Origin: Acidimicrobiia bacterium
GTDB taxonomy: Bacteria; Acidobacteriota; Terriglobia; Bryobacterales; Bryobacteraceae
Direction: 5' to 3'
NCBI GenBank assembly: GCA_016871315.1
Contig: VFZE01000001.1
Span: 248,001 to 312,000, forward strand
Length of the DNA: 64,000 bases
Shown here one piece after another: positions 47,872-51,837 of the stretch (within the stretch, counting starts at the first letter, position 1; the number at the start of each line of letters is the position of its first letter). The notes beneath the pieces are model-generated. The model was not told the origin of the DNA. It did no database searches and saw nothing but the letters and a program-made list of their open reading frames with translations. The position numbers and the translations under genes were made by a program.

Positions 47872-47895
47872 GGTAGTGTCTGAAATGTGCGTTGA
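47872..47895. repeat. left terminal inverted repeat (24 bp)
   Basis: Begins GGTAGTGTCTGAAATG and ends TGCGTTGA. Its exact reverse complement is at 51814-51837. The stop codon of the methyltransferase gene (47900-47902) lies 4 bases inside it. Confidence 0.93.
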
Positions 47896-47899
47896 AACC

Positions 47900-49660
47900 C
47901 TAGTCTGCATCTTGCAGGTCCATTGTGGACTGCCACTCGCTCGACTCGCGCCGCTTGCGTTGCCTTAGGACGCTGGCAGTGGCAGGAAGGGGAAATCGTA
48001 ATCTAGACTCAATCATTTTCTGCACGGGTACGATAGCGATACGGCCATATTGCTTCCCAGACATCGGATGAGTGTAGACTCCGGACGCGTTTGCTTCTGC
48101 CTGCATCCCTTTAGTTGGGTTCTTGAGGGTGATAAAAACCCCGAGTGCCGCTTCAGTCCGCTCCATATCGCCACGCAATGTGGCGATATGCTCCCGGCTC
48201 ACGACGCCTGACTTTACTTGCAGAACCACCTTTTCGGTCTTGTTGCTGTCCGCCGCGAAGTATCCCATACCGTCAATCCCCTTATCGGCTCCTTTTTTCT
48301 CATGTACGCTAGCGCGGCCATCCATGTACGTCAAGACGGCCCATTTCTCAAACTCTTTTCGGGTGCGGTCATCCTTTCTGGTGGCAAGAGCCACGGCTGA
48401 CTCGTAATCCCTTGGGATGCCCTCGATGGTAATGCCTTCGACTGTCTCAAAATGCTTCAGAACCTCAGCGATTGCGGTGTATGTGATATCAATCCCCTTC
48501 CATTGACGCTTGAGGCGATTTGCAGAGCGCAGCGTTGTTCCACACCCGCAGTAGGCGTCCAGCACCATGTCGCCCTCATTCGACGATGCGCGGATGATCC
48601 TATCCAGCAGACCTTCTGGTTTTTGTGTTTGATAGCCGATTCTTTCGGCGTCGCCATGGGCAACCATCCAGCGACAATCTTCATCAATCGCCTCATCGCT
48701 ACCATAGAGCACACCTCGTGTGTGCGGCTGATAAGCCCAGATGTCTTGAAGCCGTATTCCCGGACTGCGATGCAAGTATTGCCGATACGTTGGCATGGCA
48801 TCCGAGTCATCATCAGACGGGAAGATTACATATCCGGCAGCATCGAGCGCATCCAGTTTGTCTTGACTGGTTGCATTGGTGTCGTCGAATCCAAGGTCGT
48901 CCAAGATCTCTCCTGGAATTGCCCAATGCCTATTGTGGTCAGTGGGGTTGTAGCCGCGCCATGGTTTCCCGCTAGCGCCTCTCCGAATACCGGCTCCAGT
49001 CAAGGCGTTGCCCCAATATCGCCCGCGCTCGTCCTCTTGCTTGAAGTAACCATCAGCGTGTCCCTTCAGGTAGGGCCGAAAAACTTTATTGAACGTGTAT
49101 TCTTTTGATCTTGTGTAGAACAAAACCGTGTCGTGAATGGGGCCGAACTTGCGCCCGCTGTTGTGCGAGCCGGTTCGCCGCCAGATGATTTCGTTGCGAA
49201 ATTGGGATGGGCCAAAAACAGCGTCGAGCGCCAACTTTAAGTAGTGGCTAGCCGTTGGATCGCAGTGCAGGTAGAAGCTGCCGGTTGGCTTCAAGCACCG
49301 TCTGATCTCTACGGCGCGCTGGATCATGTGGACAAGATAGGCCATCATTCCACTTTCATCCAAGATGCCCTTGAGGGCGCGCACAAGCTCTATGACTTCT
49401 GATGTGTATCGCTGGCCCTCGTTTCCAAGAATGGCATCGTAGTCGAACTTGGCCGCACCGTCCCAGGTCCACATGTCGGTGAACGCCTCGGCTTGCGCCC
49501 TATCCTTACGCTCCGGGGTGCTGTAGATGATGTTGTACGCCTGTTTGCTGTTGAACGGTGGATCAATGTAGCAGAGATCTATCGTTTCGCTTGGAAACCA
49601 TTCCTCGTTGCGCAGAACAGCGAGGTTGTCGCCGTAGTAGAGTCGATTCACTTCGGTCAT
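47900..49660 (-). CDS. beta-class DNA methyltransferase fused to an Mrr-like nuclease domain (IS passenger)
   Basis: 586 residues from ATG 49660. N-terminal methyltransferase: motif IV DPPF at 33-36 comes before motif I (DAYCGCGTT, 368-376), the circular order of beta-class N6-adenine/N4-cytosine enzymes; QTQKPEGLLDRII precedes motif I. C-terminal ~435-560 looks like a PD-(D/E)xK nuclease of Mrr type: KGADKGIDGMGYF with Asp463 and VVLQVKSG with Gln481 and Lys483. One chain could thus both modify and cut DNA, with no separate specificity subunit. The ATG shares one base with the transposase stop (TAATG), so translation is coupled. A start further upstream (49750) would lie inside the transposase gene. 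Target sequence unknown. Confidence 0.88.
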   Translation of the reverse strand: MTEVNRLYYGDNLAVLRNEEWFPSETIDLCYIDPPFNSKQAYNIIYSTPERKDRAQAEAFTDMWTWDGAAKFDYDAILGNEGQRYTSEVIELVRALKGILDESGMMAYLVHMIQRAVEIRRCLKPTGSFYLHCDPTASHYLKLALDAVFGPSQFRNEIIWRRTGSHNSGRKFGPIHDTVLFYTRSKEYTFNKVFRPYLKGHADGYFKQEDERGRYWGNALTGAGIRRGASGKPWRGYNPTDHNRHWAIPGEILDDLGFDDTNATSQDKLDALDAAGYVIFPSDDDSDAMPTYRQYLHRSPGIRLQDIWAYQPHTRGVLYGSDEAIDEDCRWMVAHGDAERIGYQTQKPEGLLDRIIRASSNEGDMVLDAYCGCGTTLRSANRLKRQWKGIDITYTAIAEVLKHFETVEGITIEGIPRDYESAVALATRKDDRTRKEFEKWAVLTYMDGRASVHEKKGADKGIDGMGYFAADSNKTEKVVLQVKSGVVSREHIATLRGDMERTEAALGVFITLKNPTKGMQAEANASGVYTHPMSGKQYGRIAIVPVQKMIESRLRFPLPATASVLRQRKRRESSEWQSTMDLQDAD

Positions 49661-50625
49661 TATGCCAGAAGCTCGGCCAGATCCCACACGTGATCCGTGA
49701 TCCCCGCTTCCATCGCGGGTGTAACGCGGATAGTCTTGTGAATGCGGCAAAAGTTGTAGTACCCGAAGTACAGTGCCAGCGCTGCCCAGTGGTTCTCAAA
49801 CTTCTTCGAGAAGCCGTTGGTCAGCCGCGTGAGTCGCCGAATCTGCATGCGCATAGTGAGATTTTGGCGCTCTACATGTGAAGTACAAATACGGGCAGGA
49901 TCGGGGCTACCGACGACTGGGACCACCTCCGAAGCCACGACCTCTGCCGGGGAATACCGCCGCTCACCTTCCGGGGTAGCGCGGTAGACTTTGACGAACT
50001 GGGCATAGTCAACGCGGTCACTCAAGGTCGTGTCGATGGACGATGCGTACGGAATAAAACCGTCCGTCGTGATTTGGAAATTCTGTCCTGAAGTTGCGTG
50101 GCGCAGGCCCTCAATGAAAATGTCCGTGGTGGCCTGATCCCGCTTGCCAAGGGCGAAGTTCAGAACGAGTTTGCTATGGCGCTCGATTGCTACGAAGCAG
50201 TAGGCATCGCCAAAACTCGGATCGTCGCCGATCTCCCGCCGCTTTTCCTTCTTGAAGATGAACGACCAGATCTCATCGCACTGAACGTCTTTCACGGGGA
50301 CATTCACGATGAGCCGACCCATAACCCTTTCGCAGCGCTCTCCGGCCAGCACAAGGGCCTTCATGATCGTGTTCTTGTCCAGCCCGGTGATTCTAGCCGT
50401 GCTGCTGATACTGTTGCCTTCCAGGAGAAGCTGAAGGGCAAGGATGGCCTTTTCTTGGGGGATGTACATAGAGCCCAAGGTGCGCTCGTGAGTTTCGGTG
50501 TAGGTCCTTTTGCAGCCGGGGCAGCGAAAACGACGCAGGCCATTACGATGCTTTCCAAAGCCTTGACAGGCAATGTGGCATTCCTGGCAAGTCATTGTTG
50601 CACTGGCCTTTGATGTCGTTTTCAT
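49660..50625 (-). CDS. IS1-family transposase (single-ORF type)
   Basis: 321 residues. N-terminal zinc ribbon (Cys13, Cys16, Cys35, Cys38), an HTH (about 55-95, NSISSTARITGLDKNTIMKAL), then the DDE catalytic core: Asp117 (QCDEIWSF), Asp188 (ITTDGF) and Glu252 (SHVERQNL), and the typical IS1 end RLTRLTNGFSKKFENH...YYNFCRIHKT. Unlike Escherichia coli IS1 no frameshift is needed to make the full protein. It mobilises the element 47872-51837. Promoter TTGACA-18-TATTAT lies right upstream and ends 6 bases before the ATG. The stop overlaps the methyltransferase start by one base. Confidence 0.95.
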   Translation of the reverse strand: MKTTSKASATMTCQECHIACQGFGKHRNGLRRFRCPGCKRTYTETHERTLGSMYIPQEKAILALQLLLEGNSISSTARITGLDKNTIMKALVLAGERCERVMGRLIVNVPVKDVQCDEIWSFIFKKEKRREIGDDPSFGDAYCFVAIERHSKLVLNFALGKRDQATTDIFIEGLRHATSGQNFQITTDGFIPYASSIDTTLSDRVDYAQFVKVYRATPEGERRYSPAEVVASEVVPVVGSPDPARICTSHVERQNLTMRMQIRRLTRLTNGFSKKFENHWAALALYFGYYNFCRIHKTIRVTPAMEAGITDHVWDLAELLA

Positions 50626-50631
50626 GAGTCA

Positions 50632-51415: not shown

Positions 51416-51461
51416 GCGCCCAATCTAGCACAATTGCAGATTAAGCGTCAAGAGCAGGTGC

Positions 51462-51761
51462 TTAATTTCGCTCTTTCTTCGGTCTCCCGCCCGCCTTGGT
51501 CTTGCGCTTCGCTGCCAGCTTGCGGAAGTGATCGGAGCCAAGCTTTTCAGCCGTCGCTGTGCCGCCCTTGCTTCCGAGAATCGCAGCCGGGCTCATGCGG
51601 TCCTGCTTCAGCAGATCATCGGTGAGCACGAGTGCAGAGCGGAGAAGTTCCCGGCTGCGTCCCGTTCGGTTCTGCGGGAGGTTGGGAGTGGTTTCTAGGA
51701 TGAGGTCAACTTCGGCGATGATATTTTTGAGGGCCTGAAGTGACTGGCGTTCGGTTGGCAT
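51462..51761 (-). CDS. small KGG-motif basic protein, mobile element cargo
   Basis: 99 residues. Helical N-terminal part (about 1-60), then GSKGGTATAEKLGSDHFRKL and AKRKTKAGGRPKKE, a basic tail with the KGG-type motif and an AT-hook-like GGRPKK. Such tails are found in small proteins of many bacteria without defined role; DNA binding is an inference from charge. It is the first gene of the element from the right end, 52 bp inside the inverted repeat. It ends with TAA. Confidence 0.7.
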   Translation of the reverse strand: MPTERQSLQALKNIIAEVDLILETTPNLPQNRTGRSRELLRSALVLTDDLLKQDRMSPAAILGSKGGTATAEKLGSDHFRKLAAKRKTKAGGRPKKERN

Positions 51762-51813
51762 ACTTCCATCATGAAGCCGGATCGGATCAGAAGCAAGCGT
51801 TCGCTGTTTTCAG

Positions 51814-51837
51814 TCAACGCACATTTCAGACACTACC
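51814..51837. repeat. right terminal inverted repeat (24 bp)
   Basis: Exact reverse complement of the left repeat at 47872-47895; read inward from the right end it begins GGTAGTGTCTGAAATG. Followed directly by the second GGGCCTTG copy. Confidence 0.93.

Follow-up and report, generated by a model that had tools for sequence, protein, structure and literature searches.

An IS1-type transposon family that carries tRNA genes with mismatched anticodons among its cargo

In a 64-kb window of contig VFZE01000001.1 (the whole stretch of DNA analyzed here), positions 47872-51837 hold a complete IS1-type element of 3,966 bp whose cargo includes two tRNA genes. The element is bounded by 24-bp terminal inverted repeats that are 100% complementary to each other (left, 47872..47895, plus strand; right, 51814..51837, minus strand), and an 8-bp target-site duplication read from the sequence, GGGCCTTG, abuts both ends on the outside (47864..47871 and 51838..51845). 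Elsewhere in the window, no second copy of the end sequence matched at more than 18 of 24 positions, and the motif GGTAGTG occurs on the plus strand at 47872 only. The protein and tRNA genes of the element are all on the minus strand. Read from 51837, genes for a 99-amino-acid (aa) protein and then a 133-aa protein come first, followed by a hairpin and by tRNA t2 and then t1; next comes the transposase, preceded by its promoter, and last a DNA methyltransferase fused to an Mrr-type nuclease domain. The passengers listed in an initial annotation of this DNA do lie inside the ends. The GC content of the element is 0.542, compared with 0.631 for the rest of the window. Intact ends and an intact duplication are what suggest a recent insertion, as that annotation had proposed; a search for the empty site in 20 relatives gave no match.

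Both tRNA genes were recovered with ARAGORN and Rfam, the Rfam scores being 49.8 and 44 bits against a gathering cutoff of 29. ARAGORN called one of them "tRNA-Stop (tta)" and left the other without an assignment. The gene t1 (50753..50839, minus strand) has a Leu-type class II body with A73, the body type being assigned by eye here and throughout, and its anticodon, UUA, which reads the ochre codon UAA, is mismatched to that body. Its cloverleaf is intact, with a 7/5 acceptor/T branch of 12 bp that contains no mismatch and a 7-nt anticodon loop, CTTTAAA, that has U33 and is closed by a 5-bp stem. By blastn, t1 resembles the tRNAs of two related loci, L048 and L163. The gene t2 (50852..50925, minus strand) is Cys-like (GCA, U73) and likewise has a 7/5 branch; its anticodon loop, CCUGCAAG, is 8 nt long, and the fourth pair of its anticodon stem is a pyrimidine mismatch. 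A perfect 10-bp hairpin was computed at 50934..50958, 8 nt upstream of t2.

The element on which the initial annotation had focused proved to be one member of a large family. The host genome encodes one full transposase and two C-terminal transposase fragments, and transposase homologs at an E value of 1e-20 or better were found in 40 of 297 genomes of the phylum. We examined 40 enlarged loci and 80 named loci, the latter being the best 80 of 568 relatives, and delimited elements by inverted ends together with an 8- to 9-bp duplication around the transposase. This procedure delimited the window element and 26 of the 40 enlarged loci; 12 of the 40 had no end pair, and the end pairs of L034 and L070 were left out because of a partial transposase and ends of another kind. 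Ends with a target duplication were found in 58 of the 80 named loci (6 of them recognized duplicates), whereas the end finder returned no pairs from shuffled versions of the same 80 loci, which bears out the earlier description of a complete mobile unit. It had also been considered that the ends might lie closer to the transposase; in the window they do not, though one family element spans only 1.5 kb. The working set contains 79 elements of 1,504 to 6,033 bp, with a median of 3,241 bp. Hosts among the named loci include Acidobacteria, Planctomycetes, Deltaproteobacteria, Myxococcales, Nitrospira, Alpha- and Betaproteobacteria, Bacteroidota, and Verrucomicrobia. Three of the four closed plasmids examined bear an element that is complete, with both its ends and a duplication, and ARAGORN found no tRNA in the four plasmid regions. 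The complete element of L236 (CP050295.1, a Mesorhizobium loti plasmid) has a small first open reading frame (ORF) annotated as "histone H1."

tRNA genes are concentrated inside these elements. ARAGORN, run with default settings, identified 15 within the 257,501 bases of the 79 elements, spread over 13 of them, whereas the 859,956 bases of flanking sequence at the same loci yielded 9 (binomial p = 4e-5). Two of the 15 belong to the window, which was selected on their account; when it is set aside, 13 and 9 remain. Anticodons are ordinary in eight of the nine flank tRNAs: two Ser TGA genes, of which one shows a slight change in a stem, and one gene each for Arg, Ala, Pro, Thr, Glu, and His. The ninth comes from L125; its anticodon, ACU, is odd, and some 100 bases downstream of it, on the same (minus) strand, is another transposase copy of this family, which is broken (2748-3901). 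Both lie outside the delimited element. Our own cloverleaf finder returned 17 hits with a score of at least 28 in 14 of the 79 elements, against 0.3 per shuffled set. When ARAGORN, Rfam, a covariance model, blastn, and the cloverleaf finder were combined, 18 to 21 of the 79 elements carried a tRNA, a range in which the covariance model is not independent (14 of its 15 training sequences came from these elements) and the weakest assignments are L046, L150, and L173. Seven loci without a recognized duplication (L037, L116, L132, L137, L146, L156, and L166) also have a tRNA upstream of the transposase. Some candidates were rejected. Cluster 14, considered as a shared tRNA in L033, L117, L124, and L141, showed no tRNA in a motif search, and the group I intron of L100 sits in an ordinary tRNA-Leu gene. 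Similarly, L036 has a group I intron (1145-1486) in an apparently ordinary tRNA-Leu gene near a transposase at the end of its contig.

The tRNAs fall into a few recurring kinds. The ochre anticodon UUA is present in eight tRNAs at seven loci: on Leu-type bodies with A73 (window t1, L048, and the first tRNA of L163), on Ser-type bodies with G73 (the second tRNA of L163, L071, and L213), and in compact tRNAs with tiny D-arms (L144 and L182). Because UUA recurs on both Leu-type and Ser-type bodies, which L163 carries together, selection appears to have acted on the anticodon and not on the body. Five tRNAs have the anticodon UAU, one with a 7/5 branch (L050) and four with a 9/3 branch (L169, L137, L146, and L150); L128, with an 8/4 branch, combines UAU with C33. 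The 9/3 branch is also found in L071 and L213, whose anticodon stems have a mismatched closing pair, and the anticodon stem of L146 is poor. An 8-nt anticodon loop on a Cys-like body with U73 and the same pyrimidine mismatch in the fourth stem pair is shared by window t2, L116, and L045. The Gly-like tRNAs of L067 and L155 (its second) have GGCTTTCCATCC in common around the anticodon, where the choice of pairing decides whether the loop has 7 nt or 8. Other anticodons are UAG (the first tRNA of L155), UAC (L132), and GUC (L127), and the tRNAs of L129, L059, L037, L156, L166, L042, and L066 stand outside the main kinds. Acceptor and T stems are intact, and U33 is present in the UUA and UAU loops. 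Furthermore, the discriminators fit the bodies, with A73 in the three Leu-type UUA tRNAs and U73 in the Cys- and Gly-like ones; G73 is found in L050, L169, L137, L146, L150, L071, and L213. In L114 (9486-9577, minus strand), a tRNA-like sequence with an encoded CCA has a long hairpin in place of the anticodon arm.

In 15 of the 21 elements that have a tRNA, it precedes the transposase on the same strand. It is upstream on the opposite strand in L045, L048, L128, and L129 and downstream on the opposite strand in L071, L114, and also L213. The predicted transposase promoter of the window sits downstream of both tRNAs, and in L050, L059, L067, and L127 a promoter-like sequence and a palindrome likewise lie near the transposase ATG, downstream of the tRNA. 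The hairpin found ahead of t2 has counterparts in the family: the median hairpin score upstream of 26 tRNAs was 17.75, whereas 1,500 stretches drawn at random from the elements, including their genes, had a median of 11.5 (p = 4e-9). Directly upstream of the window tRNAs is the gene for the 133-aa protein (51014..51415, minus strand), a coiled coil (by eye) followed by a winged helix with a weak match to AbiEi-type antitoxins (PF13338, 1e-6; PADLOC AbiEi, 1.3e-9).

Pattern searches provided an independent view of the association between tRNAs and elements, and most matches of both patterns were judged not to be tRNAs. Across 396 genomes of the phylum, the UUA pattern gave 24 matches, three of which (L197, L198, and L203) are tRNA-like and lie beside the transposase. 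Two of these, L198 and L203, were already in our set; L197 (= L213) is a new UUA tRNA, and the 3,471-bp element that contains it is complete, having GGTAGTG ends and a duplication of 9 bp, GGCTCGCTC. No convincing UUA tRNA was seen among the other 21 matches, and L192, L205, and L212 show an apparent tRNA 3' half. The UAU pattern gave 14 matches, among them the known L050 element (L220) and one beside a transposase fragment (L229). Five of its seven tRNA-like matches (L223, L224, L225, L226, and L228, by eye) have no copy of this transposase within about 1.5 kb; these five come from genomes of the window's phylum and have long variable regions. These outcomes tie UUA tRNAs strongly, and UAU tRNAs in part, to the element; other carriers of UAU tRNAs may exist.

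Our results lead us to favor, tentatively and at somewhat below an even chance, the interpretation that the window element is a passenger-carrying IS1-type transposon whose suppressor-type tRNAs misread codons. Two observations incline us toward suppressor decoding: identical anticodons recur on bodies of different types, and the discriminators fit Leu, Ser, Cys, and Gly tRNAs. Judging from the anatomy of the element and the 79-element family, the transposase would recognize the 24-bp ends, move the whole 4-kb unit, and generate the 8-bp duplication. The winged-helix gene, the hairpin, and the tRNAs would make up a second cargo unit ahead of the transposase's own promoter. If expressed, t1, with its ochre anticodon on a Leu body, and t2, with its enlarged loop on a Cys body, would both be of the suppressor type; host synthetases would charge them, and low-level misreading would result, with UAA read as Leu by t1. 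Whether it acts on the host or on an invader, such misreading could alter termination or fidelity, and the neighboring winged-helix protein might control the tRNAs. It is possible, if doubtful, that the IS1-type family as a whole disseminates naturally occurring informational suppressors, namely tRNAs of the ochre, missense, and enlarged-loop types, many of them as a winged-helix/hairpin/tRNA module. In that event, mobile elements would carry many orphan allo-tRNAs, and regulated mistranslation would be a mobile trait, possibly a defense or addiction system.

Several observations weigh against suppressor decoding, including the UAU tRNAs that lie away from this transposase. Between 58 and 61 of the 79 elements have no detectable tRNA, and nearly all of the tRNA-bearing records are metagenome-assembled drafts; on the one known exception, contig L166 of the isolate Tsuneonella rigui KCTC 42620, the tRNA was found by the covariance model and not by ARAGORN, and no duplication was found. 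The elbow of t1 is changed, with no G18 and a T-loop reading TGCAAGA (numbering by eye). Positions 18 and 55 are A and G in both t1 and L127, compared with G18 and U55 in relatives (by eye), and A18/G55 may be a compensated elbow pair. The anticodon stems of L071, L213, and L146 contain at least two mismatches as we paired them. Furthermore, the hairpin before the tRNA is terminator-like in L067 and L132, so that the tRNA may be poorly transcribed in some elements. No in-frame UAA that looks translated was found in the element genes of UUA-bearing elements, several of which end genes with TAA. Finally, a review of allo-tRNAs reports that the UAU group failed in E. coli translation (PMC7609411).

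The main rival to suppressor decoding is a system of protein plus tRNA mimic, in which a tRNA-like RNA and a winged-helix protein would act as a regulator, a decoy, or a toxin-antitoxin-like pair; charging or EF-Tu binding may then matter, but codon reading would not. Although we regard this as unlikely, such a pairing would account for the finding that winged-helix cargo occurs in 14 of 21 tRNA-bearing elements and 8 of 58 others (p = 1.2e-5), a count that is based on hand-made tables and is partly circular, since five calls (the window, L127, L155, L066, and L129) came from looking beside tRNAs. By clusters only, the figures are 9 of 17 and 12 of 62 (p = 0.011). The calls comprise single cases and clusters 8, 18, and 24, with clusters 8 and 18 taken as winged helices on our own judgment; among the cluster 8 and 18 proteins, Pfam gave DUF5343 in L050 and nothing in L144 or L163. 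The AbiEi-antitoxin-like winged helix of the window fits a toxin-antitoxin arrangement, as does the DUF5343 protein adjoining the L050 tRNA, which matches the defense candidate PDC-M34A in PADLOC. Aberrant central domains also speak for a role without decoding: the tiny D-arms of L042, L144, and L182 (by eye), the absence of a normal anticodon loop in L114, and the 8-nt loops. However, the pairing breaks down in both directions, since L042, L048, L059, L071, L114, L128, and L182 have a tRNA and no listed winged-helix gene, and L051, L065, L113, L130, L131, L133, L136, and L145 have a winged-helix gene without a tRNA; in the eight tRNA-less elements inspected, no hidden tRNA was seen behind the winged-helix genes. 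The repeated UUA and UAU anticodons would be left unexplained. A small ribbon-helix-helix gene (cluster 12, with a NikA-like Pfam match tested in L163 only) points toward the tRNA in L163, L169, and L071.

An insulating or processing function is less probable still. Here, the hairpin and the tRNA-like fold would end the cargo transcript, be cut by RNase P and RNase Z, and shield the transposase from outside transcription. The position of the tRNA between cargo and transposase promoter on the same strand in 15 of 21 elements, the hairpin ahead of many of them, and the 12-bp acceptor/T branch as the best-kept part of the molecule are all compatible with such a function. Yet U33 and the recurrent UUA and UAU in the anticodon loops would be needless, and the seven elements with an opposite-strand or downstream tRNA named above would not fit.

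We consider it very improbable that the tRNAs are decaying host pseudogenes captured by chance. The diversity of bodies (Leu, Ser, Cys, and Gly types) and the mismatched anticodon stems of several tRNAs could be read in this way, but the acceptor and T stems are near-perfect, the genes are enriched inside elements, the same anticodons recur in records of Acidobacteria and of Deltaproteobacteria/Myxococcales, and window t2, L116, and L045 have in common an 8-nt loop that is accompanied by a pyrimidine mismatch. An element-specific decoding role merits slightly less credence. Recoding of the elements' own genes was rejected, as none of the ORFs in elements with a UUA tRNA has an in-frame UAA that is credible. 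In the narrower version, the ochre tRNA would suppress the transposase UAA and thereby tune reinitiation at the methyltransferase, whose start forms a UAAUG overlap (TAA followed by an in-frame TGA). However, other UUA elements end the transposase with TGA (L048, L071, L144, and L163) or TAG (L182), as does the candidate UUA element L173 (TAG), and there is no credible internal UAA. UAA is the transposase stop in 1 of 7 listed UUA elements (including L173) and in 22 of 70 others, numbers too small to judge avoidance. Least credible is compensation for phage or host tRNA cleavage, the role that had first been proposed for the tRNAs: the family does carry many toxin-antitoxin and defense genes, but most anticodons inside the elements mismatch the normal tRNA of the same body, ordinary tRNAs sit in the flanks, and neither t1 nor t2 can stand in for a normal host tRNA because of the UUA anticodon of the one and the 8-nt loop and mismatched stem of the other.

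The closest known counterparts of these tRNAs are allo-tRNAs, reportedly treated by Mukai et al. in 2017. Both groups include non-cognate anticodons such as UAU and ochre, Ser-type bodies, and 8/4 or 9/3 branches. The window tRNAs differ in being 7/5, whereas L169, L137, L146, L150, L071, L213, and L128 have the 8/4 or 9/3 branch; a further difference is that the elements are a defined carrier with ends and duplications. The review cited above places allo-tRNAs in Clostridia, Proteobacteria, and Acidobacteria, with ochre anticodons among those of the 9/3 type and UAU among the commonest non-cognate anticodons, on Ser-type bodies with 8/4 or 9/3 branches (PMC7609411). It also mentions irregular tRNA clusters in soil metatranscriptomes and one UAU pseudogene that overlaps a transposon-related ORF, and it guesses at links with transposons or toxin-antitoxin systems (PMC7609411). 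Among the matches listed from the open-license literature, judged by title and the start of the abstract, we found no tRNA cargo in an insertion sequence with defined ends, and no insertion sequence with a methyltransferase passenger that combined tRNA cargo with an Mrr fusion. Laboratory ochre, missense, and frameshift suppressor tRNAs show the same UUA on a Leu body and an enlarged loop on a Cys-like body; the window tRNAs, in contrast, are natural and mobile, with suppression a prediction.

Our findings supply a carrier, with ends that are exactly defined, for tRNAs that environmental genomes have so far shown mostly as orphan genes, and they make it testable why mobile DNA carries tRNAs for stop or wrong sense codons. 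Should the tRNAs be active, the fidelity of translation in bacteria of soil and water would vary with their transposon load. If they are inactive, a new system of protein plus tRNA mimic would be likely. As compact insertion sequence units, the elements also form a large reservoir, so far little described, of genes for toxin-antitoxin and restriction systems.

The transposase itself (49660..50625, minus strand) is a single ORF of 321 aa. It matches PF03400 (DDE_Tnp_IS1) at 30.8 bits, above the cutoff of 24.1, and the NCBIfam IS1 model NF033558 at 78.5 bits, below the curated cutoff of 100, in agreement with the family given in the initial annotation. Residues D117, D188, and E252 are invariant in an alignment of 22 transposase homologs and are the putative catalytic triad, and in three of four regions fetched from closed plasmids the homolog bears the annotation "IS1 family transposase." Classical IS1 has two overlapping frames with a frameshift, ends of 20 to 30 bp, and a target duplication of 8 to 9 bp, and single-ORF subgroups exist within the family. 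The elements described here share with it a related DDE transposase, ends of about 24 bp beginning GGTAGTG or similar, and 8- to 9-bp duplications; they differ in being units of 1.5 to 6 kb with cargo and in having a single ORF instead of two frames. The candidate IS1 subgroup is that of the long ISMhu11-type members. A predicted sigma70-like promoter, TTGACA-18-TATTAT (50632..50661, minus strand), lies 6 nt before the transposase ATG, the number of promoter-like sites (2) being that expected by chance (2.0). At 49658-49662 (minus strand), the sequence TAATG joins the transposase stop to the methyltransferase ATG, with TGA as the next in-frame codon, and translational coupling of the two genes is likely.

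The initial annotation had placed its emphasis on the methyltransferase, whereas we find the tRNAs to be the surprising cargo. The fused protein (47900..49660, minus strand) was identified by Pfam, PADLOC, and motifs. In a Pfam run on 47900-49663, which includes one extra codon, it matched N6_N4_Mtase (PF01555, 4.8e-36) and Mrr_cat (PF04471, 1e-8), and PADLOC returned MTase_II. The methyltransferase motifs are intact and in the beta order, in which methylase motif IV (DPPF at 34) precedes motif I (DAYCGCGTT at 369), and the Mrr-type active-site motifs GIDG (at 462) and QVKSG (at 482) are intact as well. Nuclease activity is a prediction only, because the inactive-nuclease model NA-iREase1 (2.7e-8) scores almost as well as Mrr_cat. 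The nearest Protein Data Bank entry by sequence, MboIIA (1g60), covers the methylase part only. Type II/III beta-class methyltransferases and Mrr nucleases share PF01555 and PF04471 with this protein, which differs in having both domains in one chain inside an insertion sequence. Probably this single chain serves restriction-modification or acts as a methylation-linked nuclease, and in doing so stabilizes the element or defends the host. Of the mobile defense or addiction module suggested earlier, the restriction-modification part is plausible, and the part assigned to the tRNAs is not supported. Transporter insertion sequences, such as IS1595-type elements with methyltransferases, likewise have cargo within simple ends and a methyltransferase passenger; here the methyltransferase-Mrr gene, the winged-helix gene, and the tRNAs all lie between the ends, and tRNA cargo and the Mrr fusion are additions. 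The passengers would be dispensable for transposition, to judge from relatives with other cargo. In a Desulfobaccales metagenome-assembled genome, L173 (3554-5366, minus strand) combines a methyltransferase of cluster 28, shared with the window, with a second gene and a tRNA-like stretch.

Just inside the right end, the basic 99-aa accessory protein (51462..51761, minus strand; cluster 9) has homologs in eight other elements and no family match in Pfam, PADLOC, or NCBIfam. The survey of cargo in the 79 elements covered 131 ORFs with a length of 150 aa or more. Among the best 25 of 55 Pfam families were HTH_3 (16), IrrE-like M78 (9), P63C (5), SocA/Panacea (3), N6_N4_Mtase (2), Tsp45I (1), and Fic (1), and the best 25 of 218 PADLOC entries included RmrA (up to 6), PD-Lambda-2_B (6), CapP (3), RmrT (2), and HEC-04 (2). 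Judged by these matches, the elements resemble small vehicles for toxin-antitoxin and defense genes. RmrA-like cargo (PADLOC, 2.4e-58) is present at L033/L073, in an element from a genome of the window's family. Outside the element, a long ORF (51892-54312, plus strand) adjoins the insertion, and its features are presumably those of the TIGR03437 family of Acidobacteria.

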